From the NCBI GenBank assembly GCA_027488865.1, contig JAIYAU010000044.1, positions 62,001-126,000 on the forward strand: 64,000 nt of DNA, in the 5' to 3' direction. Of this stretch, positions 17,787 through 63,456 are shown in pieces. Made by a program: the position numbers and the translations under genes. Numbering within the stretch: the first letter of the stretch is position 1; each line of letters begins with the position of its first letter. The notes below the pieces were generated by a model. The model saw nothing but the letters and a program-made list of their open reading frames with translations. It searched no databases and was not told where the DNA came from. This DNA is from Cytophagaceae bacterium. GTDB lineage: Bacteria > Bacteroidota > Bacteroidia > Cytophagales > UBA9547.

Positions 17787-17789
17787 AAG

Positions 17790-18794: not shown

Positions 18795-18887
18795 ACATAC
18801 GGCAAAGTGGGCGTTTTGCCAATTTTTATAATAAAGTGATAAAATAATTAATAATAAAAAACTAAATTGGCATAAAATTAAAAATTA

Positions 18888-19313: not shown

Positions 19314-19355
19314 TTACATTTACCCTATTTTCATACAGCGTACAAACCAACCAAC

Positions 19356-21656
19356 GTGGGTAAGATTATTATATTGTTAACCTTATTAATCTCAATCCAT
19401 GTGTGGGCTCAGGATAATATTACCCTTACTGGATTAGTTAAAGACAGAAAAACAAAGCTTCCATTAGAAGGCGTTAGGGTAGTTGTTAAAGGTTTTAATT
19501 TGGTAACTGCAACCGATTCTTTGGGTCAATTTTCGCTAAAATTAACAACTCTTGATGATACCATCCAAATAACATTTTTATTTGAAGGTTACAAGCAGAG
19601 CTTTAGAAAAATTACCGCTAAAAGCCCATATCTTGAGGTGGAAATTGAAGAGATTAGTTTAGAACTACAGGAGGTTTTTATTACCGACAACAAAAGCCAA
19701 AGTATCTACAGCAGCCAAATGAGCGTGAACACAATCACCGCTAAAGAAATTAAAAATATTCCAGCTTTTTTTGGTGAACCAGATATTTTAAAAATATTAC
19801 AATTAAAACCTGGTATTCAATCATCTGGTGAAGGAAGTAATGGTATTTTTGTTAGAGGTGGCGGTGCAGATCAAAATCTGGTTTTACTAGATGAAGCTCC
19901 TATATATAACGCCAATCACTTATTTGGCTTTTTTAGTGTATTTAATGCAGATATAGTTCGGTCGGTAGATATTTATAAGGGTGGATTTGGAGCCAATTAC
20001 GGCGGAAGGCTCTCGTCAATAATCGACATCAAACTAAAAGATGGGAATAAGAAAAAATTTTCCGCGTCTGGAGGCATCGGATTAATTTCATCAAGATTAA
20101 CCTTGGAAGCACCTCTACAAAAAAACAAATCTTCACTCTTTGTTTCTGCTAGACGAACATATGCTGAAATATTCACAAAAGCTTTAAATAGACGTAATGA
20201 AGGCAATAGTAACTACGACCCAATCCCTGATTACTATTTCTATGATTTAAACATAAGAGCCGATTATTTTATTAATGCCAATAACAAGGTTTTTGTAAAT
20301 TTTTATCATGGTCGTGACTTGTTTCAGTTTGGTAGAAGAGGTTTTAATTTTATGTTAGATTGGGGAAATACAGCATTAACCACTAAATGGAATCATATTT
20401 TTAACAAAAGGCTTTCGATGAATAATAGTCTTGTGTATTCGTCCTACGATTATAAAATTCAAAACAAAATACTTGATTTTGGTTTTGTAATCCAGTCGAA
20501 AGTTAATGATGTCCAATATAAATCCGACTTTGAGTACGAAATAAATTCACGAAACAGAATGTTTTTTGGAGGTGCTTTTATCAATCGTGATTACACCATT
20601 GGCCGATTAAGGGGAGGCAGTAATGATGACAGCGTTAGCATAAATGCTGGCACAATAAAAAGAGCCAATGAATATGCCATTTACTTAGGCACAGAACACG
20701 ACATCGCTGCTAGGTGGCGGTTAACAAACGGGATTAGGTTAAGTGGAACTAATAACGGTAACATAAATTACAACAGGCTTGAGCCACGTTTTTCAGTACG
20801 CTACATTATAAATGAAAATTTATCAGGAAAGGCCAGTTTTGCCTCGATGACTCAATACATTCACCTTGCAACCAATACAGGTGCAAGTCTACCTACAGAC
20901 ATTTGGTATCCTACTAGCAAATTGGTAAAACCTGAAAAAGCAAACCAATGGGCTACAGGGATAAGTTATCTATTCTTCAAACAAAAATATGTACTCAGCT
21001 ATGAATTCTATTACAAAACACTAACCAACCAAATAGACTTTAAAGATGGCGCGCAACTACTCGTTAACCCAAACTTGGAAGACGAGTTTGTCTTTGGAAG
21101 AGGCTGGGCCTATGGAAATGAGCTATATCTCGAAAAAAAGAAAGGTAAAACTACTGGGTGGATAAGTTACACACTTGCATGGGCTTGGAGGCAATTTGAC
21201 CAGATTAATTATGGGCGAAGATTTCGTCCTAAAAACGACAGGAGGCACGACATTTCAGTAGTAATCATGCATCAACTAAACCGAAGAATTAGTATTAGCG
21301 CCACTTGGGTATTTGGTTCTGGGTCGTTAATAACTTTGCCTGTTGGTAAAATGGTATTTCAAGGCATAGAAGGTACTAGTTATCAAGTTGTACCCGATTA
21401 TAGAGAACGAAACAATTATCGTATGGCACCTTATCATCGATTAGATTTGGGAATGGTTTATAAGTTTTCCCACAAAAGTGGCGAATCTGACCTTACTTTC
21501 AGTATTTTTAATGCCTATAATCGCAGGAATCCCTATTTTGTGTTTTTTGAAGATGTACGAAGCCCTTCAAATAATGATATTATAGTAGGCTTCAAAGGTA
21601 GTCAAGTATCTTTATTTCCAATTCTTCCATCGATAACCTACAACTTTAAATTCTGA
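19356..21656 (+). CDS. TonB-dependent outer membrane receptor with carboxypeptidase-regulatory-like domain
   Basis: The 766-residue protein starts with GTG (signal peptide through about residue 19, HVWAQ), then a CarboxypepD_reg-like domain (about 22-100, LTGLVKDRKTKLPLEGVRV), the plug (about 120-230, with GIFVRGGGADQNLVLLDEAP) and a 22-strand-type beta-barrel ending in FKF, the aromatic C-terminus needed for barrel assembly. It imports a large ligand, often a siderophore or glycan, using TonB energy. There is no SusD-like gene nearby, so a polysaccharide utilisation locus is not evident. The neighbouring Rrf2 regulator favours a metal- or redox-related ligand, as inference. Confidence 0.9.
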   Translation: MGKIIILLTLLISIHVWAQDNITLTGLVKDRKTKLPLEGVRVVVKGFNLVTATDSLGQFSLKLTTLDDTIQITFLFEGYKQSFRKITAKSPYLEVEIEEISLELQEVFITDNKSQSIYSSQMSVNTITAKEIKNIPAFFGEPDILKILQLKPGIQSSGEGSNGIFVRGGGADQNLVLLDEAPIYNANHLFGFFSVFNADIVRSVDIYKGGFGANYGGRLSSIIDIKLKDGNKKKFSASGGIGLISSRLTLEAPLQKNKSSLFVSARRTYAEIFTKALNRRNEGNSNYDPIPDYYFYDLNIRADYFINANNKVFVNFYHGRDLFQFGRRGFNFMLDWGNTALTTKWNHIFNKRLSMNNSLVYSSYDYKIQNKILDFGFVIQSKVNDVQYKSDFEYEINSRNRMFFGGAFINRDYTIGRLRGGSNDDSVSINAGTIKRANEYAIYLGTEHDIAARWRLTNGIRLSGTNNGNINYNRLEPRFSVRYIINENLSGKASFASMTQYIHLATNTGASLPTDIWYPTSKLVKPEKANQWATGISYLFFKQKYVLSYEFYYKTLTNQIDFKDGAQLLVNPNLEDEFVFGRGWAYGNELYLEKKKGKTTGWISYTLAWAWRQFDQINYGRRFRPKNDRRHDISVVIMHQLNRRISISATWVFGSGSLITLPVGKMVFQGIEGTSYQVVPDYRERNNYRMAPYHRLDLGMVYKFSHKSGESDLTFSIFNAYNRRNPYFVFFEDVRSPSNNDIIVGFKGSQVSLFPILPSITYNFKF

Positions 21657-41050: not shown

Positions 41051-43375
41051 TTATGCCGCTTTCAGTTTGTATAAATGCTGTTGAAATTCAATAAACAAAC
41101 GGCTAATGCTTTTAACGTCTCCTAAAATTTCTTTCGCATCTTCAAGCGATTGATATTTATTTGTCAGCAAGATTGGCAATTTCTCTTGGTCAAGTTCTTC
41201 TACACCTGTTTCAATGTATTTGCTCAACACAAATTCTATAAACTCTTTTTGTTTGTTGTCAAGTAATGCGAAAATGGTTGCTTGTGCTGCTGCAACTCTT
41301 GCTTCTCTTGTCATTGGTTTTATGTCGCTGTTAAACACATATTCCAAAACATCAAACAAGTCGCTTTTTTCAGCGTCAATCAATTTTTGCAAAGTGGTTA
41401 ATTCATCTTTACCAAAACCCGCCTCCGCTAATTTTTCAAGTAAAGTTCTTCTTGTTATTGGATTACTCCAGAGTGTCCGCAATTCTTCTTCACTTTTGAA
41501 AAGATTTGGCAATTCGCCAAACAGATTATTCAAAAATTCTTCTGCTGTAATTATTTTACCATCAGCTGTCCAAAAAGAGGTAGAAGACATTGATTGAATT
41601 TCTCTTTCTTTTCCGTCACGCAATTTTATTTTTATTTTCTTCCGCTTTTCTCCGTCTTGATCTTTCGGCTCTTTTGGTTCTTTGGGTAAGTAAGGTTCTT
41701 TCGGTTCATTTACAATATTTGGTTCAGGCTCTAATGGTTCTCCATCCCATTCAGGGTCGGCAAAGTGATGATAAGCATCTACAAAGTCATAAATTGTAAA
41801 AAAGTCTTTGCCATCAAACAAACGAGTTCCTCGTCCTATAATTTGCTTAAACTCTATCATTGAGTTTACTGGTCGCATCAAAACGATGTTGCGAATGTTT
41901 CTTGCATCAACACCAGTTGAAAGTTTTTGCGAGGTAGTTAAAATGGTGGGGATTGTTTTTTCGTTGTCCTGAAATTCTCTTAAAAACTGTTCGCCTATTT
42001 CTCCATCGTTTGCTGTTACACGAACACAATAATTTGGAAGGTTGCTTTTCTTGTATTGGTTTACCAAATCTCTAACCAATGCCGCATGTGGCTGATTGGC
42101 ACAAAAAATTATAGCCTTTTCCTTTTGATTGGCTTCATCTAAATATATGTTGACCCGCTTTGCCTCCCTTGCTACTATTTCAATACTTCGGTTAAAGTCT
42201 TTTTCTTCATACAGTTTGCCTTCTTCAATTTCTCCTTCAACTATTTGGTCATCGCTGGTGTAGATGTAATCGTCAAGGGTTGTCTTGATGCGTTTTACTT
42301 TGAATGGCGTAAGGAAACCATCGTTGATACCTTCTTTCAAAGAATAAACATAAACGGGTTCACCAAAATATTTGTAAGTATCTACATTGTCTTTGCGTTT
42401 TGGTGTGGCCGTTAAGCCCAACTGAACTGCTGGTGAAAAATATTCTAAAATGCCTCTCCAGTTCCCTTCATCGTTTGCTCCGCCACGGTGGCACTCGTCA
42501 ATAATGATGAAATCAAAATAGTCGGCTGGATATTCGCCAAAATAGGGAACAGGATTGCCTTCCTTGTCTTTGCCACTCATAAAGGTTTGAAAGATTGTAA
42601 AGAAGATGCTGCCGTTTGTAGGCACTCGCCCGCCTTTTCGAATTTCTTTTGGGTTTATCCGCACCAAAGCATCTTCGGGAAATGCTGAAAAAGCATTGTA
42701 GGCTTGGTCGGCTAATATGTTTCTATCGGCTAAAAATAAAATGCGTGGTCTGCGGCTTCCGTCACGTTTTAAGTTCCAACGGGTTTGAAATAGTTTCCAG
42801 GCAATTTGAAAAGCGATAAATGTTTTTCCTGTGCCTGTGGCAAGGGTTAATAAAATTCGTGGCTCATTATTGGCAACAGCTTCTAAAGTGTTATTTACCG
42901 CAATTTCTTGATAGTATCTTGCTCCTTTTGTTCCACCAACATCTTCAAACAGAATGGTAGAAAATTTCTCTCTCCACTCGTTTTGAGCAGCAAAAGTTTT
43001 ATTCCAAAGTTGTTCGGGTGTTAAAAAATCTGCAACCAAACCCTCCACACCTGTTTTCATACAGATGCTGTAAATTTCTTTTCCGTTGGTGCTGTAAGTG
43101 GTTTCTAATTTGAGTTTATCTGCATATTGCTTGGCTTGTGCCACACCTTCCCCTACTTCCAAATCATCACTTTTGGCTTCTACTATTGCTAGTTTTATGC
43201 CTTTGTAAACCAACACATAATCGGCAGTAAGTTTTTTGGCTCTTACGCCACCTGTTTGAATTTTACCTGCGGTAAGGTTGTGTTCACGAAGGATTTTAGA
43301 ACCTTCCACAACGCCCCAACCACAAGCCTTTAACTTCGGGTCTATGAGTTCTGCTCTTGTTTCTGCTTCGTTCAT
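41051..43375 (-). CDS. hsdR: Type I restriction enzyme R subunit
   Basis: The 774-residue protein starts with a type I R-subunit nuclease domain (about 10-130; TADYVLVYKGIKLAIVEAKS gives the D and ExK catalytic pattern), then a superfamily 2 helicase with Walker A TLATGTGKT and DECH box (IIDECHRGG), a second RecA fold with IIGRGTRL, and a C-terminal EcoEI-type coiled region. It translocates and cuts foreign DNA when complexed with HsdM and HsdS. It follows a 264-base small gene and lies downstream of an hsdR 5' remnant, so it appears to have replaced or been added after the original hsdR. Confidence 0.93.
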   Translation of the reverse strand: MNEAETRAELIDPKLKACGWGVVEGSKILREHNLTAGKIQTGGVRAKKLTADYVLVYKGIKLAIVEAKSDDLEVGEGVAQAKQYADKLKLETTYSTNGKEIYSICMKTGVEGLVADFLTPEQLWNKTFAAQNEWREKFSTILFEDVGGTKGARYYQEIAVNNTLEAVANNEPRILLTLATGTGKTFIAFQIAWKLFQTRWNLKRDGSRRPRILFLADRNILADQAYNAFSAFPEDALVRINPKEIRKGGRVPTNGSIFFTIFQTFMSGKDKEGNPVPYFGEYPADYFDFIIIDECHRGGANDEGNWRGILEYFSPAVQLGLTATPKRKDNVDTYKYFGEPVYVYSLKEGINDGFLTPFKVKRIKTTLDDYIYTSDDQIVEGEIEEGKLYEEKDFNRSIEIVAREAKRVNIYLDEANQKEKAIIFCANQPHAALVRDLVNQYKKSNLPNYCVRVTANDGEIGEQFLREFQDNEKTIPTILTTSQKLSTGVDARNIRNIVLMRPVNSMIEFKQIIGRGTRLFDGKDFFTIYDFVDAYHHFADPEWDGEPLEPEPNIVNEPKEPYLPKEPKEPKDQDGEKRKKIKIKLRDGKEREIQSMSSTSFWTADGKIITAEEFLNNLFGELPNLFKSEEELRTLWSNPITRRTLLEKLAEAGFGKDELTTLQKLIDAEKSDLFDVLEYVFNSDIKPMTREARVAAAQATIFALLDNKQKEFIEFVLSKYIETGVEELDQEKLPILLTNKYQSLEDAKEILGDVKSISRLFIEFQQHLYKLKAA

Positions 43376-43409
43376 GTATTTTGTTTTGTCTGTGCGTCAG
43401 AGCATCTAA

Positions 43410-43673
43410 TCAAGAAGGCAATTTATTTTCCTTCTTCGCTTCGATTAATTCTAAAGCAATTTTACAAACCTCATATTTTTCTGATTTTTGACACTCCTCC
43501 TCTATTATTTCTAATGCTTCGGGAATAAGTTGATTCAAAATCCTTTTAATCTCAGCTTGTGGCAAGTTGGCTATCTGATCAATATCCTCAATGATTTTAT
43601 CAGTTAAATATCTATTAATTCTTCCATCAAATTGTTCACCTGACTCCTTATCACCTTTTTTAAATTTTTTCAT
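43410..43673 (-). CDS. Small charged helical protein, unknown
   Basis: I do not recognise it. The 87-residue protein is rich in Glu, Lys and Ile, predicted mostly helical, with EDIDQIANLPQAEIKRIL and LIPEALEIIEEECQKSEK. It lies between the truncated and the intact hsdR copies on the same strand, 34 bases before the intact hsdR, so it may have arrived with that copy. A small regulator or an antirestriction-like partner is possible, without evidence. Confidence 0.5.
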   Translation of the reverse strand: MKKFKKGDKESGEQFDGRINRYLTDKIIEDIDQIANLPQAEIKRILNQLIPEALEIIEEECQKSEKYEVCKIALELIEAKKENKLPS

Positions 43674-43711
43674 TTTATAATTTTTTTAAAACCATTTAAT
43701 TATTACTTATA

Positions 43712-43867
43712 TCAATATAATATTATGTCATTTTCAGATGTTTTGCCAATCAAACAGATTAGCCATATTTTGCATTCAAGCAGGATTTTAGAACCTTCTA
43801 CAACTCCCCAATCACAAGCCTTTAGCTTTGGGTCAATTAGTTCTACTCTTGTATCTGCTTCGTTCAT
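43712..43867 (-). pseudogene. Remnant of a second hsdR 5' end
   Basis: A 51-codon frame whose first 29 residues match the N-terminus of the intact HsdR at 26 of 29 positions (for example ELIDPKLKAC and WGVVEGSKIL), then diverges and stops. The ATG overlaps the stop of the AlbA_2 gene by four bases (ATGA), exactly as a coupled downstream operon gene would. It is therefore the scar of the original hsdR, lost after a recombination or insertion. Confidence 0.8.
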
Positions 43868-45354
43868 TTTTGGGCCTTTATTTTCTTTAGAATCTGATTT
43901 GTCAAGTAGTATTTTCCTGTTTTTGCAGCTCCTTTAAACTCTATTAAGTTTATTTCTCTAAGTACCTGTAAATATCTTTTGACTGTTGCATTTGATTTCC
44001 CTGTAGCATCCATTATGTCTTTTATTGCAGCTCCATCACTTAGTTTTATAATTGTATTTACAGTATCAATTAGAGCATCATTTACAGCATCACTTACAGC
44101 ATCAATAGTTCCTTTTCTTACAGCATCATTTACAGCATCATTTACAGCATCATTTAAAGCATCATTTAAAGCATCAGCTTTTGCAGTAACTGTAACTCCA
44201 GTAAATACAACAGTAGTAGAACCAGCATTACTAATCCATTTTGGGCTTACATATCCTTTGCTTTTACAATCTTCAATCATAAGCACAGTTCCTCTTCCAA
44301 TCTTTTCTATCATTTGTCGTAAGAAGCAAATGTGAGCAATATCGGGGTTGCGGGGAACAGACAAATGACTTTTGGCTAAATCAGTTGGTGAGTAGCCTCC
44401 ATACAATGAGCCTGAATTTATTATTTCTAAATGAGTTGGGTAAAAAGCAATATGAACAGTACCTGAAACGCTGGAAAAATCTCTATGAATTAACGCATTC
44501 ATCAAGCCCTCACGCAAAGCAAATTTTGGATAGGTAACATCTTCACGCAACCATTTTTTTTCTAAAAACTTGCTTTTTGTGGCAATGTTGACTTCAAAAA
44601 ACTGTAGTATCTCCTCGATATTTCTGAATAGGTTGCCCTCAAATACTTTATCGTAACTGTAGCTATTTGACGTTTTACTTTCATTGAAAACCGTTAATCG
44701 TACACGGCATTGTGGCAAATATCGTGAGGGTTCTTTAGCGAATAGAACCACCGCAGCATTGGTCAAATGCCCATCCCTGTATAAGCTGTAATACAATAAA
44801 AAGTCTTCTATATCCTTTTCACCGAAAAGCTTTCCTCTACCGAATTTTGTTAAGTCTTGGATCGTTTTACGGATTTCCAATTCATCTAAATCGACAATAT
44901 CAAGCCCCAAAGCTGGTTGACGCTCCCAGTGTAATTCTGTTTTTTGCCGTTCGGTAATGAGTTTTGAAATGTCGGCGGAGGTCGCTTTTACTGTTCTGGT
45001 TCCACGTCTGTAAAAAATCTCTCCGTTGAAAATGTAGGGTGGCTTCGAACCATTCCAGACCTTAACTGATATTATTTCTTTTGCTCCGATTTTTTCAATA
45101 GAAACAGTAACTGGTGCTTCCGGGATAATGGATTGAAAAAGATACTGTTTTAACTCGTTTTCGTGCTTCTCTGCACTATCAACACCAATAATCTTTCCAT
45201 CTTCCTGAACGCCTAGCAACAAAGTGCCACCTTCTGCATTTAAAAAAGCACATAAGGTTTTTGCAATATCTTCTTTACGAACAACTTCTTTAAATTCAAG
45301 CTGTTCGCTTTCTCCTTTTTTAATCAGGTTTTTTATAAGTTGTTCATCTTTCAT
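43864..45354 (-). CDS. AlbA_2/Schlafen-type ATP-binding protein with winged helix
   Basis: The 496-residue protein begins with an AlbA_2 (Schlafen-like) domain (about 15-130: EQLEFKEVVRKEDIAKTLCAFLNAEGGTLLLGV), continues with a HATPase_c_4-type region (about 180-400) with FALREGLMNALIHRDFS and GRGTVLMIEDCKSKG, then a 40-residue linker made of a repeated NDAV-type unit, and ends with a winged helix (about 440-490: AIKDIMDATGKSNATVKRYLQVLREINLIE). Such proteins are common transcription regulators or accessory factors in defence islands. It is embedded in a type I RM operon between the DUF4062 gene and hsdR. Its DNA contains a 12-base tandem repeat, listed separately. Confidence 0.8.
   Translation of the reverse strand: MKDEQLIKNLIKKGESEQLEFKEVVRKEDIAKTLCAFLNAEGGTLLLGVQEDGKIIGVDSAEKHENELKQYLFQSIIPEAPVTVSIEKIGAKEIISVKVWNGSKPPYIFNGEIFYRRGTRTVKATSADISKLITERQKTELHWERQPALGLDIVDLDELEIRKTIQDLTKFGRGKLFGEKDIEDFLLYYSLYRDGHLTNAAVVLFAKEPSRYLPQCRVRLTVFNESKTSNSYSYDKVFEGNLFRNIEEILQFFEVNIATKSKFLEKKWLREDVTYPKFALREGLMNALIHRDFSSVSGTVHIAFYPTHLEIINSGSLYGGYSPTDLAKSHLSVPRNPDIAHICFLRQMIEKIGRGTVLMIEDCKSKGYVSPKWISNAGSTTVVFTGVTVTAKADALNDALNDAVNDAVNDAVRKGTIDAVSDAVNDALIDTVNTIIKLSDGAAIKDIMDATGKSNATVKRYLQVLREINLIEFKGAAKTGKYYLTNQILKKIKAQK
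44057..44176. repeat. 12-base tandem repeat inside the AlbA_2 gene
   Basis: Ten in-register 12-base units (consensus TTTACAGCATCA on the plus strand), with units 44057-44104 and 44117-44176 separated by one degenerate unit. They encode a four-residue period, such as VNDAVNDA, in a linker. Because the unit is a multiple of three, copy number changes would lengthen or shorten the linker without changing frame. Confidence 0.9.
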
Positions 45355-45896
45355 TATTGTAATTCTTTTAAGCGTTTGTTATGGTCTTTAAACTGCTGTT
45401 CAATAAAAAACAACAATTCTCCCGGATTTGTAAATGATTGAACCCAATTATGCCGAACATCATTATACATATCCACCACCTTTATACTATCTAAAACAGA
45501 ATTCCTTTTTAATTCAAAATCAGTTCTACACTTGACTTCATCGTATAAATAGGGTTCAAACAATTTTCTTAAATATTCAATCTTTTCGTGTGCTACAAAC
45601 CATCTAGGTTTTCCAATTCTTACAGCTTCTTTAAATTCTTTATGTGTAATTCCTGAACCATAGCGAGGAAAGATTATACCTAAAAATAAATCACAATCGT
45701 TTACTGCTTGCAAACAAGCTCCTTCAGGATTATTGATAAATTGTACAGGAACGTAAACACTCCCTTCTTTAGACATAATAACTTCATAACCAAACTGCTG
45801 ACGCAAAACTACAGCAATTTGTTCCAGTATATCTTGACTGCCATATACCGTGGATGAAATCATTATTTTTAGTTTACGCTTTTTAGCCATAATCAC
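45354..45896 (-). CDS. DUF4062 domain protein
   Basis: The 180-residue protein begins with a Rossmann-type DUF4062 fold: LKIMISSTVYGSQDILEQI, then DCDLFLGIIFPRYGSGITHKEFKEAVRIGKPRWFV. This domain resembles nucleoside deoxyribosyltransferase and TIR-like folds and is frequent in bacterial immune proteins, where it often precedes a STAND or other module. Here it stands alone with only a 60-residue helical tail. Its ATG overlaps the hsdS stop by four bases, and its stop overlaps the AlbA_2 start by one base, so it is cotranslated within the type I operon. A role as a NAD-processing or ligand-binding accessory protein is inference. Confidence 0.75.
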   Translation of the reverse strand: MIMAKKRKLKIMISSTVYGSQDILEQIAVVLRQQFGYEVIMSKEGSVYVPVQFINNPEGACLQAVNDCDLFLGIIFPRYGSGITHKEFKEAVRIGKPRWFVAHEKIEYLRKLFEPYLYDEVKCRTDFELKRNSVLDSIKVVDMYNDVRHNWVQSFTNPGELLFFIEQQFKDHNKRLKELQ

Positions 45897-47233
45897 ATAT
45901 TTTCTACTTTTTCAGTTTTCAATTCCCCCCTAAACGCCTTCTCCAACAAACTCTTCTTCAACTCCTCCAAATCTTTGATCTTTTGCTCATAAATGGATTC
46001 CAGTTTTATGGTTTCGGTGGATAGGGCATCGAGTTTTTGAACGATGGTTTGTTGTTCTTTTAATGTCATATTCGGCAGAACAAAGTTTCTCAAAGCAGTT
46101 AATGAAACTGTTTTTTGTGCAGTTCCAGTTGCAGTATCATTTGCTTGAAAAAATGCCTGTGGAGATAAAATCCAGTAAAATAGCCATTTGCTACTTACAT
46201 TTTCTTTTGGCCTGATTAATCCAATGTGTCGCTGAAAACAAAATTGAAATTCATCTTCAATTAAAACTGGAATTCCATATGAACCTGTTACAGTATATAA
46301 AACATCCCCCTTTTTCGGTTTTCTATTTTCTTTTAATTTCTCAAAATATTCCTTTGGAACTTTGAATGTATCTGAGAAATCTATTTTGCGATTTTGTTTA
46401 TTGATGTTAGAAATAGTAATAAAAGGATAACCTTCTTCCGATTTTGGTGGTGGCATATGGTCTCCATCGGTAATATCTTTTGCCAATTCAGATAATTTAA
46501 CCTTTTCCCAATTCCCATTCTCAAACACCCCTTGCAAATAACTTTCAAAAAGTTCCTTGGCGTTTTTGAGGTTTTGTTCGGCATTGGCTTTTGCCTTATC
46601 TATGGCGGCAAAGCACTCGTCTAAAATGGAAACAATGCGTTGTTGTTCGGGGAGGGGTGGAAGAGGGATTTCAACTTCTCTAATTTCTTCTAAATGAAGA
46701 TTTGGAACACCAATCCCTTTAAGTCTTCCATTAAATTGATTTTTAGCTAAAGGTGAATTTAAAAAATGAAGTAGATAATCTGACAACAAACCATCTAAGG
46801 GTCTTAATAAAGCAAGACTTACATAAATATCAAAAATTACATCCCTATTCACTTTTGCGGCAACCCCAGTTGTACCATTTTTTGCTAAAAGTATATCTCC
46901 AACTTTTGGAGCAACTCGCTTATGCATTTCTAAATGCTGCTTTTCATCAATATATTTAATGTTATCCCAATCAATTTTTCCACTAGTAACATTTTTAGAC
47001 GATAGAAAAATTACACCTTCACTAAAATATTGCGGTGTTTGGTGTGTACCATCAGTTATTTTAGCACAAACATCACTTAACTTTTTTATTTCCCAACCTT
47101 TCTTCAAATTGTCTGCATTAAGATTTTTAGGATTTGAAGATTTTAGGATTCGTTTGTTCTCATTGAGATTTTCTATAATCATATCATCCTCTAATCCATC
47201 CAATCCTAATTCTGACACTTTTCCTTCCCTCAT
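45893..47233 (-). CDS. hsdS: Type I restriction-modification specificity subunit HsdS
   Basis: The 446-residue protein has two target recognition domains (about 46-200 and 240-390), each followed by a conserved helical region that starts with the EIPLPPLPEQQRIV and NMTLKEQQTIVQKLDAL segments and continues as coiled coil. HsdS binds the bipartite DNA target and bridges HsdM and HsdR. The first 45 residues are an atypical polar extension before the first domain (KKGWEIKKLSDV). Its ATG overlaps the hsdM stop by four bases. Confidence 0.9.
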   Translation of the reverse strand: MREGKVSELGLDGLEDDMIIENLNENKRILKSSNPKNLNADNLKKGWEIKKLSDVCAKITDGTHQTPQYFSEGVIFLSSKNVTSGKIDWDNIKYIDEKQHLEMHKRVAPKVGDILLAKNGTTGVAAKVNRDVIFDIYVSLALLRPLDGLLSDYLLHFLNSPLAKNQFNGRLKGIGVPNLHLEEIREVEIPLPPLPEQQRIVSILDECFAAIDKAKANAEQNLKNAKELFESYLQGVFENGNWEKVKLSELAKDITDGDHMPPPKSEEGYPFITISNINKQNRKIDFSDTFKVPKEYFEKLKENRKPKKGDVLYTVTGSYGIPVLIEDEFQFCFQRHIGLIRPKENVSSKWLFYWILSPQAFFQANDTATGTAQKTVSLTALRNFVLPNMTLKEQQTIVQKLDALSTETIKLESIYEQKIKDLEELKKSLLEKAFRGELKTEKVENM

Positions 47234-48705
47234 AACAATTCCAAAATTGAGTTCAAAATCTCCGCACTTTCTTCGTCCAAGGCTCTCATTTCTTCCAATA
47301 TTTCCTGGGGTTGGCGAAGTCTGGTTTCTTCCTTTTTGTTCGGATTTTTGGCACTGAGGTCAAAAGTGGTTTGGTCTATGTCTTTAATGTTAACGCTCCA
47401 AGATTTTTCGCTCTCAGGCTTCGATAAACTCAGCCGGACAAATTCTTCCAAATCTTTTTCACTCAAAGGATTCCCCTTTCCCAAGTTTCTGCCCAAATTC
47501 AATTGGTAAAACCAAACCTTTTGGGTGGCACTTCCCTTTTCAAAAAACAACACCACCGTTTTCACCCCAGCCCCCGTAAACGTTCCGCCTGGCAAATCCA
47601 ACACCGTATGCAAATTGCAGCTTTCCAACAGTTGTTTGCGCAAGGCCACCGATGCATTGTCCGTATTGCTCAAAAAGGTGTTTTTAATCACCACACCTGC
47701 CTTGCCGCCAGCTTTGAGTATTTTTATAAAATGTTGAAGGAATAGCGAAGCAGTTTCACCTGTTTTGATCGGGAAGTTTTGCTGCACTTCGGCACGTTCC
47801 TTCCCACCAAAAGGCGGATTGGCCAAAACTATATCATAACGGTCTTTCTCTTGGATGTCAGCCAAGTTTTCGGCAAGCGTGTTTGTATGGATGATGTTGG
47901 GAGCTTCGACCCCATGCAAAATCATGTTCATGATACCGATGATATAGGCCAAAGACTTTTTCTCCTTGCCATAAAAAGTTTGTTTTTGCAAGATTTCAGT
48001 TTCTTTCGAAGAAAGGGTTCTTTGTTTTCCATCGACAGGCTGAGGGTTGCGCAAATAATTGAAAGCTTCGCACAAGAAACCCGCACTCCCACAAGCCCCG
48101 TCATAAATTTTCTGGCCTATTTCAGGAGCGATTACTTTTATGATGGTCGTAATGAGCGGACGAGGCGTGTAGTATTCGCCCCCGTTGCGCCCTGCGTTGC
48201 CCATGTTTTGGATTTTGGCCTCATAGAGATGGCTCATTTCGTGTTTCTCCGCGTGGGTTCGGAAACGCAGTTCATCTATCCGATTGATCACTTCCCGCAA
48301 ATTGTAGCCACTTTGGATGCGGTTTTTCAATTCACTAAAAATCTCACCAATTTTATACTCAATGGTATCCGCACTCTCCGCATCGGCTTTGAATTGCTTC
48401 AGGTAAGGAAAAAGTTTGATGTTAACAAAGTCAGTCAAATCATCACCCGTCAAAGCCCTATGGTGATCCAGTTTGCCGTCCTTGTCCTTAGGCGCAGCCC
48501 ACACCGTCCATTTGTAGTCTGGGGCTATGATATTGGTATACGTCTTCCCGCTCAACTCCGCAGCCGTAGCCTTATCCCGCTCCAAATCATCCAAATATTT
48601 CAAAAACAACACCCAAGAAGTCTGCTCCACATAATCCAGCTCACTCCCACACCCAGCGTCCTTGTGAAGTATGTCATCTATATTTTTAAAGGTTTGTTCA
48701 AACAT
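47230..48705 (-). CDS. hsdM: Type I restriction-modification methyltransferase HsdM
   Basis: The 491-residue N6-adenine methyltransferase has the HsdM N-terminal helical domain (about 5-130), the SAM motif DGACGSAGFL (about 199-208) and the catalytic NPPF motif (VLANPPFGG, about 300). It methylates the host target and forms the modification core with HsdS. The gene's base composition appears less AT-rich than its neighbours, suggesting a different transfer history. It is the first gene of the minus-strand operon. Confidence 0.93.
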   Translation of the reverse strand: MFEQTFKNIDDILHKDAGCGSELDYVEQTSWVLFLKYLDDLERDKATAAELSGKTYTNIIAPDYKWTVWAAPKDKDGKLDHHRALTGDDLTDFVNIKLFPYLKQFKADAESADTIEYKIGEIFSELKNRIQSGYNLREVINRIDELRFRTHAEKHEMSHLYEAKIQNMGNAGRNGGEYYTPRPLITTIIKVIAPEIGQKIYDGACGSAGFLCEAFNYLRNPQPVDGKQRTLSSKETEILQKQTFYGKEKKSLAYIIGIMNMILHGVEAPNIIHTNTLAENLADIQEKDRYDIVLANPPFGGKERAEVQQNFPIKTGETASLFLQHFIKILKAGGKAGVVIKNTFLSNTDNASVALRKQLLESCNLHTVLDLPGGTFTGAGVKTVVLFFEKGSATQKVWFYQLNLGRNLGKGNPLSEKDLEEFVRLSLSKPESEKSWSVNIKDIDQTTFDLSAKNPNKKEETRLRQPQEILEEMRALDEESAEILNSILELL

Positions 48706-50441: not shown

Positions 50442-51224
50442 TTAGCATTCCATTATTTGGGAAGCGTATTGTCTATCTATTTCAAATATTGAAGTAAAAT
50501 CATGAAAATGACTTGAAAGTGATATTAAATAAGGTCTCCATAGCCTATGTTGTGCATTTTGAACGCACTTTTTATAGGTACTGGACGATGTAAGCTTTTT
50601 ATGATCCTGATATTTATAAAAATTTTTCAAAATAAAATCAATGGACAACACAATATCCAATGGCGGATGCATTATTCTTGGGGTATCCAATAATATAAAA
50701 TCACCAAAATGGAATCCATCTGTTTTAGTTATCTCAGACCCACCAAATTCATAGTGATAGAGAGGATGTATTGAAGAGACAGTTTTGCTTGAATCATGCT
50801 TATCTAGGTGCCAAGAACTTTGTAAAGTTTTAATTTCACAATTAGTATCAAGATGGTCAAATTGAACTACGAATTTAACCCCTAAATCAATTATTGGATC
50901 TTTAATAATTTCAAGCCTTGCACTATTTTCATTCCTAACATGGGTAGACTTACAAACAATAGAAAGTAGAAGTCTTGAGGTATAATTGTTGTCTTTTATT
51001 AAGTCAGCTATTGTGGATGGTCTAACATGTCTATCTAGGCAGATATTCTTAAACTCCAATTTTTTCAAATTATAGTCCCAAGCTTCATTTTTATTCTTTG
51101 GGAAAGAAAAATTTACTTTTTCTAACGTTTGATATTCACAAATACGACAAAACCAAGAGTCCTTTTTAAGAAGGATTAAAAAATTCCTAAATTCGGTTCT
51201 TGGGTCAAGTATTTCTTCTTCCAT
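50442..51224 (-). CDS. Unknown protein of the GHKL/receiver module
   Basis: I do not recognise the family. The 260-residue protein has a CxxC near the start (FCRICEY, about residues 24-30), a polar middle and a beta-rich C-terminal half with SWHLDKHDS, LYHYEFGGSE and GDFILLDTPRIMHPPLDIVLSIDFILKNFY. It has no signal peptide or membrane helix. It starts five bases after the receiver gene and is the last gene of the operon, as expected for an output or effector protein of the module. Possible roles are a nucleotide- or DNA-binding effector; no catalytic residues can be assigned. Confidence 0.6.
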   Translation of the reverse strand: MEEEILDPRTEFRNFLILLKKDSWFCRICEYQTLEKVNFSFPKNKNEAWDYNLKKLEFKNICLDRHVRPSTIADLIKDNNYTSRLLLSIVCKSTHVRNENSARLEIIKDPIIDLGVKFVVQFDHLDTNCEIKTLQSSWHLDKHDSSKTVSSIHPLYHYEFGGSEITKTDGFHFGDFILLDTPRIMHPPLDIVLSIDFILKNFYKYQDHKKLTSSSTYKKCVQNAQHRLWRPYLISLSSHFHDFTSIFEIDRQYASQIMEC

Positions 51225-51229: not shown

Positions 51230-52381
51230 TTAACTCTTAGCTTTTGTGATAAGGGATTTAAAATGATTATACCGTTCCCTGTCCATCACATTTATCTTCC
51301 ATTTATTTTCGGTCTTTTCGAGTTCAGCGTAAGCTGAGACATATTGAACCTCCTGCCAAGGATATAAAAGATGCTCCCCTACTGCAAATCCATTTATGGG
51401 GTCCAATGGACGCTTGGTACCAATACATATTGTCCAGTATTCATCACTTGAACAGAATTTTATTTTTTCGGCAGCTTTAAGTTGGAGTTTTAATTTTTCA
51501 TTTAGTAAAATTACCCTTTGAGTTGCACCAATATATCGAGGGTCTTCATTTGAAATTTCCGTTTTCCACCAAGAGTTAAATTTGAACGCCCAAAAGTTTT
51601 TCCAACCGATATTTAAATAACCACTATATTCAATACCTGCCTCTGTTAGTAAGCCTAACAAATTCCCCCAATCGTTAGACTTGATATCAACACCAAGCCT
51701 AGCGGCCAAAACTTGTTCATTTATCAACAGACCTTCTTTCTCAATAAATTCCCTTAAAAGGAATTGCACCAAATCATGAGTTGTTCTATACTTGGCCATG
51801 GTTTCCAATAAATCAATAAATCTAATATCTAAATGTCTAATATCTGCTTTGGATAACGATAATATTGTCTCTGGATTTTTCTTTAAGGTTGTTGATTGCA
51901 ATTTTTTATAAACTATTGATAAATCATATAGTTGTTTCATTGCCGTATGAGCTGATTCGTCAAAAATATCTTGCTTTATAAAGGCCAAATCGAACAAATC
52001 TAAGCTAGTTAGCTCACGTTCTCGAGCTTTTGTAAATCCTTTGTTTTTATTTGCAGAACAAATTATTATTGGGATGTCCTTCTGCCCTTTTGCCGCGCTG
52101 ATTCTGATGTGTTCAGCTAATGATTCAGCGGAAAAATCAACATTTTCTGCATTATCCGTTCCCTCTTTAGCTTGTGCACTAACATTTGTATACTCCCAAT
52201 CCAAAATAAGGCCATCTATTGAAGCAATTTCTTGTTCTATTTTTAAAGATCTTTGATGCCAACTACAAGGATATTCTGTCCTTATACTTATTAATTCGGA
52301 AATACTATTAATATATTTCACATCCCCGTCACGAGTGGCTTTGTCATTGTCATCAAGATATAGATATGTTTCCTTTCTCAT
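51230..52381 (-). CDS. Divergent receiver-domain protein
   Basis: The 383-residue protein opens with a receiver-like fold (about 5-145): acidic residues LDDND (10-13), a phosphoacceptor-like Asp61 in LILDWEYT, Ser109 in IIICSANKN and Lys136 in LAFIKQD. The sequence between Asp61 and the serine is longer than in normal receivers (about 30 residues inserted). The C-terminal region (about 150-380) is helical and beta mixed and not recognised. The gene is five bases downstream of the double-GHKL gene and five before the 260-residue protein. It is the natural partner of a histidine-kinase-like protein. Confidence 0.7.
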   Translation of the reverse strand: MRKETYLYLDDNDKATRDGDVKYINSISELISIRTEYPCSWHQRSLKIEQEIASIDGLILDWEYTNVSAQAKEGTDNAENVDFSAESLAEHIRISAAKGQKDIPIIICSANKNKGFTKARERELTSLDLFDLAFIKQDIFDESAHTAMKQLYDLSIVYKKLQSTTLKKNPETILSLSKADIRHLDIRFIDLLETMAKYRTTHDLVQFLLREFIEKEGLLINEQVLAARLGVDIKSNDWGNLLGLLTEAGIEYSGYLNIGWKNFWAFKFNSWWKTEISNEDPRYIGATQRVILLNEKLKLQLKAAEKIKFCSSDEYWTICIGTKRPLDPINGFAVGEHLLYPWQEVQYVSAYAELEKTENKWKINVMDRERYNHFKSLITKAKS

Positions 52382-52386: not shown

Positions 52387-54708
52387 TTAGTTTTCCAAAA
52401 TTGCGATTTGATCATCTGAAGCTTTCGGTATTTCTATTCTAAAACAAGTGTTATAACCGTTAGGCGGGGCAGCTAAATAAATGTCACCCTTGTATTCTAA
52501 TACTAAGTCTTTAAGAATTTTCAAACCAAGACCTGATCCAACCATTTGGTCATTTAAATTTGCATTTATACCAACAGGTGTGGATGTTGTAAAAAAAGCA
52601 TCAAAAATACGATTTTCATATTCTTTTGGAACACCATCGCCATTGTCCGAAAAGTCTAAAAATACATTTTTATTATCCTTGCTAGCGGTAATTTTTATTT
52701 TTTTTGTTTTTGGTCTTCCCCTTCTCAAAGCTTTTTTAGAGTTGGTATATAAGTTTAAGAGAATCGAATGCCATTCTGAAGGGTGCATTGGCACCGTAAA
52801 TAAGTCATACCCATTTATTTCTACCTCAACCAAGATCCCTTCATGGTCAAAATCCCATTTAGTGGATTCAACAAAAGGTATAATAACACGACGAAGCTCG
52901 ATTAACTCTAAATTTCTCCTTGCATTTTTACTAACTGCATCATTGAAATATGTTACGTAGGTATCAAGATGATGAACCTTATCAAGTACTTGTTCTAAAT
53001 TTATTCTTTTACTTTCATCAGTTTCAAACAAAAGTGCACTTTTTAGTTTGCTATTAAAAAATATTGGGAATTGAATAATTTCGTGAGTAAATTCACCTAT
53101 TGTTATTCCTAGTGATGCCAATATTCTTAGCATTGCCAACTCGTCCAGTATGTCTTTAAAATCGTTGTTTATTTCTGAGAACAATTCATTCAATTCATGG
53201 ACTTTAAAATTGCCATTCTCGTTAGGGTTATTGTTTTTAGTATTATCTAGATTATTGGCTTTTGTTAATTGTTCGATTTTTAATTGAACAGCAGTTAGTT
53301 TTTCCTTTATGTTTTTACTGTTTTCTACTATCGTTTTATCCCTTTTCTGTTTTTCTTGGTAAACATAAGGCGATAATCTCCTTATTCCGGCTATAATCGC
53401 CTTTCTTGTAAAATCTTTTAGTTCACTGATGGCTTCGCTCTCTATTAGACCTTCCCTGCTAGCAGTTTCTTCAAACAACTCCCCTTCTTTGTCAACGATT
53501 TCCACGAACCCAAAAAAATTCTTATTTGTATAGGGGATATTAAATGGGGATTTGCGGTCTTCCAATTCTATATCTATTCTGCTTCTATTCCTGTCTAAGC
53601 TAAGCCAATCGTCACCAAGCTCTCCATAAGGCAACACACGGAAACCATTTCTGTATACCCTTATGCCTGAGCTTGTATTAGCCAAGGACTCAACATTGTT
53701 TAGTTCTAGTTTTGTTATCCCATTGGAGTAATATTGATGACGGTCATAAATAAAATAATAAACCTTAAAATGAATATTTTTTAGTAGTCTATATTGCTGT
53801 ATTGACGAGTCTCCCTTTTCACCAGCACTTATTGGGGTGCTTTTGTCATCAATGTTGAAGCTTGAACATTTAACCCTAAAAAAACCTTTTTGCTCATTGT
53901 TTACGTATCCCTCGATTTCAGCAAGTGCTTTTTCAAATAATATTTTGTTTATATCCGCCAACATCGATTTTATGTTGTTTTGCGTGCGGTAGCATTCAAC
54001 TAAGAAAAAAGTATCTCCTTGTTGAGCAATATTTAGATCCGAGCTTAACTCTGACAAAAAAGTAGGTTGTAACAAATCGGTTACGTACCTAAAAACTCTT
54101 CTGATTTGAGTATCAGTCCATGCATGTCTTAATGTTTCAATATATAGGGTTGTGCCATTTGGTTTTTGCTTTACCACAGTCTCAACACTATTCTCAATAC
54201 TAGAAAGTTCCCTATCGATTATATAAGAATTCCAGTTGATTTCAACTTTTGTGGCATGTTCATCTGCTTCAACTTGAGTTATGATAGTCAACTTTTCTCC
54301 TAAAAACTGAGTTGCAAAACGCCCTATACCTTTTTTTCCCGCCCTGTGGCGATTAAACTTCGGAGATAATGGTTCATGAATTTTTGATGGAGACGATAGG
54401 GTCATAAAGCCTTTTACTAATTCGTTCTTAGTCATACCATGACCATCATCCTCAATTGTGAGCATTCCACCCGTTCCAAGAGATTCTATAAAATCAAGTC
54501 TTACTAATGTAGCATCCGCATCATATGCATTCTTCACCAATTCCGAGACAGCAGTTTCTGCCCTGCCGACCAACTCTCTACCAAGTCTATTAATTATGTT
54601 AGCATCAACTGAAAAAACAACAGTATTAGGACTAATAGCTGCAATTTGTGAGTTAATTAGGTCTCTTTGCTTTATTAAATCTTCTTTTATTTTATCGATC
54701 TCTTCCAT
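52387..54708 (-). CDS. Double GHKL ATPase with histidine-kinase-like core
   Basis: From ATG 54708 the protein has 773 residues; an in-frame start at 54753 would overlap the upstream gene and adds nothing conserved. The N-terminus is an Hsp90/MORC-type ATPase (about 35-220): the N box ELVKNAYDAD (Asn60), G1 IEDDGHGM, G2 KKGIGRFA. A middle coiled region follows, then an H-box-like GEFTHEI with His542, and a C-terminal histidine kinase ATPase (about 630-770) with N box LLNLYTNSKKAL, G1 FSDNGDG and G2 GSGLGLKIL. Each ATPase motif set is intact, so this is an unusual fusion of a MORC-like sensor ATPase with a kinase core. The next gene encodes a receiver. Confidence 0.8.
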   Translation of the reverse strand: MEEIDKIKEDLIKQRDLINSQIAAISPNTVVFSVDANIINRLGRELVGRAETAVSELVKNAYDADATLVRLDFIESLGTGGMLTIEDDGHGMTKNELVKGFMTLSSPSKIHEPLSPKFNRHRAGKKGIGRFATQFLGEKLTIITQVEADEHATKVEINWNSYIIDRELSSIENSVETVVKQKPNGTTLYIETLRHAWTDTQIRRVFRYVTDLLQPTFLSELSSDLNIAQQGDTFFLVECYRTQNNIKSMLADINKILFEKALAEIEGYVNNEQKGFFRVKCSSFNIDDKSTPISAGEKGDSSIQQYRLLKNIHFKVYYFIYDRHQYYSNGITKLELNNVESLANTSSGIRVYRNGFRVLPYGELGDDWLSLDRNRSRIDIELEDRKSPFNIPYTNKNFFGFVEIVDKEGELFEETASREGLIESEAISELKDFTRKAIIAGIRRLSPYVYQEKQKRDKTIVENSKNIKEKLTAVQLKIEQLTKANNLDNTKNNNPNENGNFKVHELNELFSEINNDFKDILDELAMLRILASLGITIGEFTHEIIQFPIFFNSKLKSALLFETDESKRINLEQVLDKVHHLDTYVTYFNDAVSKNARRNLELIELRRVIIPFVESTKWDFDHEGILVEVEINGYDLFTVPMHPSEWHSILLNLYTNSKKALRRGRPKTKKIKITASKDNKNVFLDFSDNGDGVPKEYENRIFDAFFTTSTPVGINANLNDQMVGSGLGLKILKDLVLEYKGDIYLAAPPNGYNTCFRIEIPKASDDQIAILEN

Positions 54709-54715
54709 TCCAGAA

Positions 54716-55819
54716 TTAAATAAAGCAGCTTGCACAACCAATATCATCCTCATCCGAAAGGATATCTAAAAGATATGGTGATTGGTTTTTGGGTTTACGT
54801 TCGGAACGTTTGATGTATTCTTCCTTAACTTGTAATATCCGTTCAGGTTTGATGAAGTCGGCCAAAGATTCCTCTTGCATCCAAGTATACCCATCCTTTT
54901 CATACTCCATTGCCTTCATGAAAAGGTCTTGGTGTTGTTCATATAGCCAAACCCACTCAATTTTTTGCTGGTAAAAGCAAAAGAAGCACCCTGACCTGCT
55001 TCGTGCATAAGCACCTTTTTTGCCATTGACCTCAAAACCTATCTCCTTATAGTACCCAGGGACACCAACACCGCTGGTTTCCAAAATCTTAAAAATGTCA
55101 TCCTTTATCAATACTTCATCGTTTTCCAACAAGGGAAATACCTCTTCTTTTGATAATGGGTAATTGGTCGTTTTAATAAATGAAAACATCAACCTGTTAA
55201 ACTCCTTTACATTCAAGTCCAGTAGTTGATTCAACTTTTGAAGTTGGTTGTAAAAAGGAGTAACTGGTGTCTTTAGCACCTCCCCAAAAAGTTCAGTTTT
55301 CCCATTGATTGAAACAGGATTAAAAAGTCCTACTACCGTATCAATATTGGTGTTGGAGAGTATTTTGGAGGTCACATCCTCACTCCATATATTCCTTCGA
55401 AAAGGAAAAATTGACTGGATGTTGGTTTTTTTTGAAATATAGCCTTCCCTGTTTTCGTCACCCCTGATTCCCACATAGGAAACCACGGGGTCATCGCCTA
55501 CAAATTTCTCGAAAGGATCCAGTTTCAGCTTCTTGGTACACCATCTGGCATTCGATGCAGGCAAATAACCGCCATACATCTTTAAAAAATGGTCAAACGA
55601 AACCTCAGGACTGTTTTCTGCTGCTGCCAACCTCAGTATTTTTTTTCCTAGATATACCTCCAGGTTATTGATAAGTGCATAGGTCTCATCCAACTCTTTT
55701 CCCGTATCTGATGTATAGTATTCGATGTCCAAATGGGGATAGTTATCCTTCATGTAGATAGCCAAGGCTGCGCTATCTTTGCCGCCCGAGATTCCTAAAA
55801 CATGCCTCACTTTATTCAT
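54716..55819 (-). CDS. sspD: SspD-like PAPS-reductase/PP-loop enzyme
   Basis: The 367-residue protein has the PP-loop SGGKDS (residues 11-16), TSDTGKELDET, a CTKKLK segment near residue 94, a SGCFFCFYQQ cysteine pair and a C-terminal CASC. This is the phosphoadenosine phosphosulfate reductase-like family used in Dnd (DndC) and Ssp (SspD) phosphorothioation to activate the DNA backbone before sulfur insertion. Its start overlaps the stop of the ATPase gene by eight bases. It is directly followed, with seven bases, by the double-GHKL gene. It probably cooperates with the cysteine desulfurase upstream. Confidence 0.85.
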   Translation of the reverse strand: MNKVRHVLGISGGKDSAALAIYMKDNYPHLDIEYYTSDTGKELDETYALINNLEVYLGKKILRLAAAENSPEVSFDHFLKMYGGYLPASNARWCTKKLKLDPFEKFVGDDPVVSYVGIRGDENREGYISKKTNIQSIFPFRRNIWSEDVTSKILSNTNIDTVVGLFNPVSINGKTELFGEVLKTPVTPFYNQLQKLNQLLDLNVKEFNRLMFSFIKTTNYPLSKEEVFPLLENDEVLIKDDIFKILETSGVGVPGYYKEIGFEVNGKKGAYARSRSGCFFCFYQQKIEWVWLYEQHQDLFMKAMEYEKDGYTWMQEESLADFIKPERILQVKEEYIKRSERKPKNQSPYLLDILSDEDDIGCASCFI

Positions 55820-61383: not shown

Positions 61384-63456
61384 TTAATGATGGTATTCAA
61401 AACGGGGTGCTAAATTGGATGTATTATATACGTTTTTTGAGAAAGTAAAATCGCTAAGTAACATTGTCCAAAGTTTGTTTTGAACAATGCAATTGTTTAG
61501 TTCTTTTAAACTTGTATTTTGTGTATGTCCGTTTATTATTTCTTTTCTAAGTGGTATAAGTCCTTTTATTAAATTGTCAGTCCTTAACAAACACTGCAGC
61601 TCAAAGGTTGTACAAATAGTGGCACATAAATCCCGATCTCGATTGATCCACAAGATTTCGTGGTCTGCTATGAAATTATCGGTCAATAAGAAGTACTCAA
61701 AGGTATATCCAGTTATGTTCAACCCAAGTTCTTGGGAAGCAAATTCTGCGCCCTCTTGTGACATTTCAAAAAATAAATGACCCCTTCGGAGCTGTTCAGT
61801 GGCCTTGTTTAAGTGTGCGCTTTTCCAAAGATGTCGCCCATAGCTGTTGTACGCCCCTGTATTGTTGAGCTTGAGTTCAAAAAGAAGTGCAATCTTCTCC
61901 TCTTCAGAAACAACCAAGATATCAAACTCCCCTTTAGTTAATTTGCATTCTTTTGAAACATATTCATATTTTTTATTCACAATCACCTTGAATCCACTTG
62001 CCTTAAAAAGTTCTTGCACAGAATCACAAACTGCTTTTTCCCTTTTTCTTTGATTTTTATCAGCATCAGCATTCTCTCCCTTTTTGGAATAAAGGTTGGA
62101 AGCAATTACTCTTTGGTAAATAAGCTCAGCGTAGTTGCATTTAAGTAACATTTGGGGCAATAATAAGTAACCTTCACTTGACTTTATTAATCCACCTTCT
62201 TTTTCTTTTACCAACAATTGGTCAAGAATTATTTCGAATCCCTCAATACTCAATATCTTTAAGTCCTCTATATCCTGTATTAACAAATAGAGTTCGTCGA
62301 GAGAGAATTTAAGAAAAGCAAATGATCCATTCAAAACGGGGTGCTCAACAATTTTTTGGACAAAGTAAGCTATGTCATTCATTTCTTTAAAATCTAAATC
62401 ATTAATTGAATTCATAACCCCTTGTTTGAAAAAGCTTATGAAGTATTCCAATAAAATACTATAAGCCGAAAAAACGCTGCAGATTGAAATAACGGTATAT
62501 GAATTAAACTCATGCTTACCTACCTGTATCAACTGGTTGTGTATCTCGTCAAATTCTTTGGGAACATAATATTTTTGCAGTTCCATTCGATAGTAACTAT
62601 AAAACCACTGCGTGTACATCTTTTGAAAGGATTGTTGAGAGAAAAAGCCATCTGTGTCAACCTCCCCATTAATCCATGTAGCGCCATCTGGTGATTTTAG
62701 GATTTCCGCTCCATGAGACACCATGATACCTGCAAAACCTTGATCAGTTTTATATTCTATATCATTAATCTTGAAATGTTCGTTTGCATTTACTTTTTCC
62801 TTGTTCCAGATGTTGTAGAACTGCGTTCTTATTTTCGCTTTTACTTCTGTATTTTTATTCCAAATATCAACGTTGTAAAAAACAGTTCCATTGTCATTAT
62901 GCCTTAAGAAATGAGAGTCGTATAGGATGGCAGACTGTATTTCATTTAAAATCATATCGTCTGAAATCAGCCTCCATAAAATTAGGACATCTAGGTAGTC
63001 TTCTTCAGAAAGGTACTTGGAGTCGTCTTTGAAATGAAATTTCAATATTTTATGAGCTGCCCTAGTCCCAATCAAGTTGAAAGAAGCCGGATTGATTGAT
63101 TTTATGGATTCAATTGGGATGCATTGGGAAAGAATGTTTGCAATAGCAATAACTGCCGCTATCTGATCTTTTCCGAAACTAGTAACATTCTTCTGAAGAG
63201 ATTGGATTTTAATTTTAAGAAGGTTCCGCGCATTCTGTAAACTTATTAAATAAAGCACTTGAGCTTCTAAATAAGAGGGAGGAGCCCCTCCTTTAGTTAC
63301 AAGCCCCTTAAGATGGGAACAGAACTCACTGTTCTGTAAAGGAAACCCGATTGATTTCTCTTTATCCCTTAGGATATCAAGAGCATTTTCTGGATTGCTC
63401 TGAAGTAATCGATAAGCCTTTTCGGCTAATTTAAGAGATTGTTTGTTTTGCTTCAT
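61384..63456 (-). CDS. Large protein with C-terminal PD-(D/E)xK-like nuclease motif
   Basis: I do not recognise the full-length family. The 690-residue protein is mostly helical in its first two thirds. The C-terminal region (about 480-600) has a nuclease-like core: a helix VCDSVQELFKASGFKVIV, GEFDILV with Asp512, a strand LLFELKL with Glu527 and Lys529, and a conserved helix after it. This D ... ExK arrangement fits PD-(D/E)xK restriction-type nucleases. No signal peptide is present. It is 187 bases upstream of the cysteine desulfurase on the same strand and may be a restriction effector of the phosphorothioation system or an independent defence gene. Confidence 0.65.
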   Translation of the reverse strand: MKQNKQSLKLAEKAYRLLQSNPENALDILRDKEKSIGFPLQNSEFCSHLKGLVTKGGAPPSYLEAQVLYLISLQNARNLLKIKIQSLQKNVTSFGKDQIAAVIAIANILSQCIPIESIKSINPASFNLIGTRAAHKILKFHFKDDSKYLSEEDYLDVLILWRLISDDMILNEIQSAILYDSHFLRHNDNGTVFYNVDIWNKNTEVKAKIRTQFYNIWNKEKVNANEHFKINDIEYKTDQGFAGIMVSHGAEILKSPDGATWINGEVDTDGFFSQQSFQKMYTQWFYSYYRMELQKYYVPKEFDEIHNQLIQVGKHEFNSYTVISICSVFSAYSILLEYFISFFKQGVMNSINDLDFKEMNDIAYFVQKIVEHPVLNGSFAFLKFSLDELYLLIQDIEDLKILSIEGFEIILDQLLVKEKEGGLIKSSEGYLLLPQMLLKCNYAELIYQRVIASNLYSKKGENADADKNQRKREKAVCDSVQELFKASGFKVIVNKKYEYVSKECKLTKGEFDILVVSEEEKIALLFELKLNNTGAYNSYGRHLWKSAHLNKATEQLRRGHLFFEMSQEGAEFASQELGLNITGYTFEYFLLTDNFIADHEILWINRDRDLCATICTTFELQCLLRTDNLIKGLIPLRKEIINGHTQNTSLKELNNCIVQNKLWTMLLSDFTFSKNVYNTSNLAPRFEYHH

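Follow-up and report, generated by a model that had tools for sequence, protein, structure and literature searches.

Sulfur marking of DNA is the known function of the SspABCD protein families. Ssp phosphorothioation systems have been described in the forms SspABCD–SspE and SspABCD–SspFGH (PMC9646914, PMC8092258), and a possible new Ssp variant has been suggested by the authors of a 2025 study of Acinetobacter baumannii for a GC2 Ssp region in which, according to the sentence given to it, SspE is missing and a two-component system is present (PMC12421847). The paraMORC GHKL ATPases of restriction–modification (R-M) systems were described in 2008 and, in the account given of them there, are proposed to be DNA-looping parts (Iyer et al., PMC2292703). 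In 2021, proteins with the domain architecture HATPase_c_3+HEF_HK+HATPase_c (174 of 222 sequences) were reported near receiver-like proteins and R-M genes by Bellieny-Rabelo et al. (PMC8011034), who speculated that signalling cascades might control R-M systems; our search of the literature found no tested function for double-GHKL/receiver pairs of this type. HATPase and REC are also among the figure abbreviations that DefensePredictor (PMC13092281) uses for predicted, unvalidated defence systems, a list that does not imply their co-occurrence.

The window (the whole 64,000-nucleotide stretch of Cytophagaceae DNA analysed here) contains an SspA-B-C-D cluster that is followed, in the place of the usual DNA-cutting part SspE or SspFGH, by a unit of three genes encoding a double-GHKL kinase, a receiver and a third protein (Table 1). 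The genes are closely spaced, with 7 nt between the sspD stop codon and the kinase ATG, 5 nt between kinase and receiver and 5 nt between receiver and third gene. The open frame of the kinase (54753..52387, minus strand) has 788 codons from its first ATG and 773 from the ATG at 54708; we favour the latter start because it lies just past the sspD stop and because the closest homologues are 774–776 amino acids long. PADLOC found neither an SspE nor an SspFGH effector among the Ssp-locus proteins of the window and no other recognised restriction component in its Ssp cluster; elsewhere in the genome, the one SspE model tried (PDLC02783) matched no more than weakly and in part (2.1e-7), on another contig.

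Upstream of SspA is a gene for a 690 amino acid protein (61384-63456, minus strand) that has no Pfam or PADLOC match and contains a sequence, GEFDILV...LLFELK, resembling the PD-(D/E)xK nuclease motif; it was considered as the effector and dropped, since other Ssp loci have no conserved copy. Some 1.7 kb from the three genes, on the other side, is a type I R-M system (41051-48705, minus strand) encoding EcoAI-type HsdM, HsdS and HsdR; two additional genes separate those for HsdS and HsdR (45354-45896, 180 amino acids, and 43864-45354, 496 amino acids). The 496 amino acid protein has pAgo- and CARF/HTH-like profile matches.

Table 1. Features of the Ssp cluster and of the three genes that follow it, in window coordinates
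Feature	Coordinates	Strand	Evidence or remarks
SspA-type cysteine desulfurase, 395 aa	60009..61196	minus	PADLOC SspA 9.6e-162, DndA 1.1e-160
SspB (DUF4007), 298 aa	59026..59922	minus	PADLOC SspB 8.5e-110; Pfam DUF4007 2.6e-77
SspC (BrxC-like ATPase), 1074 aa	55812..59036	minus	PADLOC SspC E=0, 1464 bits
SspD (PAPS-reductase-like, long form), 367 aa	54716..55819	minus	PADLOC SspD 4.5e-92
Double-GHKL sensor kinase, 773 aa	52387..54708	minus	Pfam, alignment, AlphaFold, Foldseek
N-terminal paraMORC/Hsp90-like GHKL ATPase, ~aa 28-212	54073..54627	minus	Pfam HATPase_c_3, NCBIfam, AlphaFold model
S5-like transducer region, clamp half, ~aa 236-420	53449..54003	minus	AlphaFold strands and Foldseek alignments
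DHp helical hairpin, ~aa 501-593	52930..53208	minus	Model, Foldseek; His542 codon 53085-53083
C-terminal histidine-kinase CA domain, ~aa 600-763, GSGLGL lid	52420..52911	minus	HATPase_c, Foldseek
Receiver protein, 383 aa: REC site D11/D61/S109/K136 and C-terminal domain without known fold	51230..52381	minus	Asp61 codon 52201-52199
Third core protein, 260 aa, predicted effector or adaptor	50442..51224	minus	HxDxH, HPxxH and PR motifs conserved; distant DUF2290 kin

We propose that the genes from 54708 to 50442 are the sensing and effector module of a DNA-modification defence system, with SspABCD (phosphorothioate, PT) as its marking half and with the module replacing SspE/SspFGH, a proposal to which we would give an even chance of being correct. 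The most unusual aspect of the locus, the presence of the Ssp phosphorothioation cluster together with a conserved third gene, was absent from the sequence-only reading of this DNA that preceded our analysis.

That reading had assigned the kinase an Hsp90/MORC-type ATPase at the N-terminus, a histidine-kinase ATPase with a GSGLGL lid at the C-terminus and an H-box histidine between the two, and each of these assignments holds. In the 773-residue numbering, Pfam places HATPase_c_3 at residues 51–162 (8.7e-24) and HATPase_c at residues 645–763 (9.6e-23), and both ATPase domains are present in all 62 of the kinase relatives scanned; phmmer searches of the PDB lead from the C-terminal part to HK853 and from the N-terminal part to MutL and Hsp90. 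In an alignment of 73 kinase sequences, the first ATPase has E56, N60, D87, G89, G91 and G127 as invariant residues, and H542, which lies in the sequence EFTHEII, is likewise invariant. The second ATPase retains N652, N656, D688, G690, G692, F702, G724, G726 and G728 in at least 90% of the same sequences; its ATP site is not degenerate.

The AlphaFold model of the kinase monomer (mean pLDDT 81.5, pTM 0.55, with low confidence for most of residues 485–536 in the linker) comprises, from N- to C-terminus, the GHKL domain, the S5-like region, a long helix, the linker, the His542 helix, helix 565–593 and the CA domain. His542 is borne by helix 501–544/546–561, which forms a hairpin with helix 565–593. 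In Foldseek comparisons the C-terminal half superposes on the HK853 DHp and CA domains (E 1e-13), and the N-terminal half is matched across ~440–490 columns by SMCHD1 and Hsp90 (E ~1e-12). Of the four-helix dimerisation domain expected around His542, the hairpin and its likeness to HK853 are borne out by the prediction, whereas the bundle itself is something that we infer, the kinase having been modelled as a monomer only. With a DHp hairpin that carries a phosphorylatable histidine, and with N, G1, F and G2 boxes, the kinase has the make-up of a true histidine kinase. It also has the features by which paraMORCs are recognised, namely a GHKL plus S5 module, intact motifs and linkage to R-M genes. 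The earlier view that the arrangement could not be placed in a known family has to be given up, the same architecture having been published in 2021 (PMC8011034). The window kinase does not match HEF_HK (PF19191) at the gathering score of 24.1 bits; six of 62 kinase relatives match this family at E≤0.1, the best at 0.0011.

In the receiver, Asp61 lies within the sequence LILDWEY. Across 52 receiver sequences D11 and D61 are invariant and S109 and K136 are conserved in at least 90%; the phospho-acceptor site is wholly kept. Eight of the 52 match Pfam iREC (best 8.9e-5), and in a profile–profile comparison the receiver group of the window aligns with the receivers of sister systems over the REC region (E 2.7e-6). 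Response_reg_2 (PF19192) is neither matched by the window receiver nor found among the 25 families listed for the 52 receivers; the protein is a receiver of another subfamily.

The presence of conserved residues on both sides of a potential phosphotransfer bears on an alternative reading, in which the kinase is a MORC/MutL-like restriction ATPase, the clamp is the working part and the kinase-like domain is structural or a second ATPase, with no phosphotransfer taking place. The N-terminal half resembles both paraMORC proteins and HgiDII-type restriction enzymes (NCBIfam BbrUII/HgiDII model, 5.1e-24, over the N-terminal ATPase part only and far under the model's cut-off), the DNA-looping role put forward for paraMORCs (PMC2292703, in its account of these proteins) is in keeping with such a reading, and a paralogue in the same genome indicates that, across the family at large, the H-box is open to drift. 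The paralogue (L002, contig C48, ~17350–21100) is an 844 amino acid double-GHKL protein whose H-box appears as LIHNI, not HE; its gene is directly downstream of one for a C5-type methyltransferase (405 amino acids), and thus a methylation-coupled version is present in the same genome. Within the subfamily, however, the invariance of His542 in 73 kinases and of the aspartate in 52 receivers makes loss of phosphotransfer improbable, and we consider a protein that works by its clamp only to be unlikely.

Homologues of the third protein are found immediately downstream of the receiver (n=57), with H139, D141, H153, P154, H157, P182 and R183 as their conserved residues. AlphaFold predicts the fold with high scores (pLDDT 88.8, pTM 0.90), and fold searches with the model gave no PDB match (best E 0.099) and no viral match. 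One relative of the third protein matches DUF2290 weakly in Pfam, and in a single hhalign comparison a DUF2290 protein aligned across the HPxxH region (probability 74.5). Pfam, PADLOC and PDB-profile searches and two fold searches were empty, and we do not claim the protein as a known nuclease; there being no match to a nuclease fold, the effector role is argued from position and from the conserved histidine and aspartate residues. Four sister loci (L080, L082, L093 and L096) have an HNH-like gene after the receiver (HNH 2.6e-6 in L080), which by position would support an effector role for the third protein.

These observations can be set against the possibility that kinase and receiver are a two-component regulator by which the modification genes, or a stress regulon, are transcriptionally controlled, rather than the direct trigger of restriction. 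The cascades that were the subject of speculation in 2021 (PMC8011034) would be of this kind, and the C-termini of the receivers show weak matches of HTH type (MarR_2 at 0.054 in L015; HTH_NWD1 at 0.01 in one of 52). The C-terminal domain of the receiver could bind DNA, a point that counts against our proposal. Such a regulator would, however, have no obvious need of a conserved third gene that diverges together with kinase and receiver, nor does it sit well with an HNH-like protein at the post-receiver position of the sister loci or with an Ssp cluster otherwise devoid of recognised restriction components; we think it improbable.

The proposal that the three genes sense and act for the Ssp cluster draws on their recurrence. 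Scanning a single genome for each species yielded 80 loci and, with loci fetched earlier, 88 were laid out. Kinase, receiver and third gene occur together in 57, the set used for the tree, where the partner is an N6-type DNA methyltransferase in 41, SspBCD in 13 (the window included) and neither in three. That the same three genes are more often found with an N6-type methyltransferase suggests that the trio is swappable. A further SspBCD locus found later (L141) brings the Ssp loci with the trio to 14, and in 10 of these the kinase gene comes next after sspD, in the same orientation. The window is the only Ssp locus with an N6 methyltransferase nearby, and this is the HsdM of the separate type I R-M operon. 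In a tree of 52 kinases the 13 Ssp-linked proteins, together with L055 and L068, form one clade with support of 100/100; L068 adjoins a DndB-family gene (1.6e-13), which again points to phosphorothioation.

Among the Ssp loci, the distances for the three proteins of the trio are correlated among themselves (r 0.80–0.86, or 0.58–0.74 without L018 and L019), as are those for SspB, SspC and SspD (r 0.64–0.85); between trio and SspBCD r is ~0 when L018 and L019, a close pair, are omitted, all of these values coming from 9–11 loci. The pattern is suggestive only, and would fit two modules that get re-paired. Ssp loci are not bound to the trio, which counts against our proposal: SspD is present in 21 of 395 genomes of the phylum and the trio in only two of the 21 (the window and L141). 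Defence genes cluster, and the trio could be an independent defence-island neighbour unrelated to SspABCD, as the nearby type I R-M system and the failure of trio divergence to track that of SspBCD would allow, but the 14 SspBCD loci, 10 of them with a same-strand kinase gene right behind sspD, the single clade specific to the Ssp setting and the lack of an N6 methyltransferase partner in any Ssp locus render this very unlikely.

The sampled Ssp loci have many different genes downstream, at the effector position. Three (L131, L134 and L135) have a double-GHKL protein of another lineage, with L131 and L134 scoring 22.3 and 23.6 bits against the HEF_HK cut-off of 24.1, so that double-GHKL kinases from two lineages or more have become neighbours of Ssp genes. 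A number of further Ssp loci encode shorter GHKL proteins (628–661 amino acids), whose match to the kinase model is confined to its beginning; in L127, L136, L145 and L146 a GHKL ATPase of this size adjoins a helicase-like protein, which makes it a second GHKL type that recurs in Ssp loci. SspD is of the long form (366–377 amino acids) in 13 cassette loci, compared with 274–324 amino acids in the second Ssp type sampled, the long-form loci being L018–L025, L034, L056, L061, L066, L069 and the window. A related double-GHKL kinase is encoded on Campylobacter plasmids, mostly of 50–60 kb (41 records matched), and in L013 the gene for this kinase precedes those for a response regulator and a convergent C5 methyltransferase.

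In favour of a sensing and effector module we count the close operon spacing, the recurrence, the single Ssp clade, the co-divergence of the trio, the invariant His542, D11 and D61 and the fold matches and, further, the HNH-like gene after the receiver in sister loci, the lack of a linked SspE and the position of L068 beside a DndB-family gene. The course of events that we infer from these domains, their conservation and the layout of the genes would run from DNA clamping to defence as follows. Host DNA would be sulfur-marked by SspABCD. The GHKL-plus-S5 half of the kinase, to judge by its likeness to MORC, Hsp90 and SMCHD1, would dimerise on ATP, clamp DNA and read the state of the mark. The state of the clamp, relayed through the helices of residues 425–561, would then control whether the C-terminal ATPase autophosphorylates the kinase at His542, a step suggested by the conservation of all the residues required. 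That DNA loading governs phosphorylation had also been hypothesised in the sequence-only reading, and goes beyond what sequence data can show. The phosphate would pass from His542 to Asp61 of the adjacent receiver and, in what is the weakest step, the phosphorylated receiver would release or activate the third protein, the likely effector.

The cassette may therefore be looked on as a new kind of trigger for Ssp systems. A bolder version, which we offer tentatively and regard as rather doubtful, is that PT defence is triggered by a His–Asp phosphorelay, in which a MORC-like clamp reads the sulfur mark and the receiver unleashes a new-fold, DUF2290-like effector, and that the cassette is a general epigenetic switch between self and non-self, as its service to methyltransferase-based systems would suggest. 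If true, two-component phosphotransfer would enter restriction-type immunity. As the same cassette is found with methyltransferases and with SspABCD, the function of the kinase–receiver pair and the question of the Ssp effector can be tested in one system.

How, then, does the locus compare with systems already described? With the Ssp systems (PMC9646914, PMC8092258) it shares SspA, B, C and D, complete and in order, and differs in that a linked SspE is missing and the kinase–receiver–third unit is in the effector position. The Acinetobacter GC2 region resembles it by description only, in a single sentence that does not give the architecture of the kinase (PMC12421847). Like the paraMORCs, the kinase has an N-terminal GHKL domain and S5-like transducer and is tied to DNA-modification genes, but here there are also a C-terminal kinase core and a receiver, neither of which is mentioned in the account of paraMORCs that we cite (PMC2292703). 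The likeness to the HEF_HK/Response_reg_2 pairs (PMC8011034) extends to an N-terminal HATPase_c_3, central DHp-like helices in which an acidic residue comes after the histidine, a C-terminal HATPase_c, an adjacent receiver-like gene, a soluble character and DNA-modification neighbours; unlike those pairs, the window has a receiver of 383 rather than 600 amino acids (the 2021 query), a conserved third gene and, as partner, SspABCD instead of a methyltransferase. We found no description of the trio with SspABCD in the literature searched. The kinase architecture has been known since 2021; what is new here is the attachment of a two-component-like sensing and effector cassette to a phosphorothioation operon.
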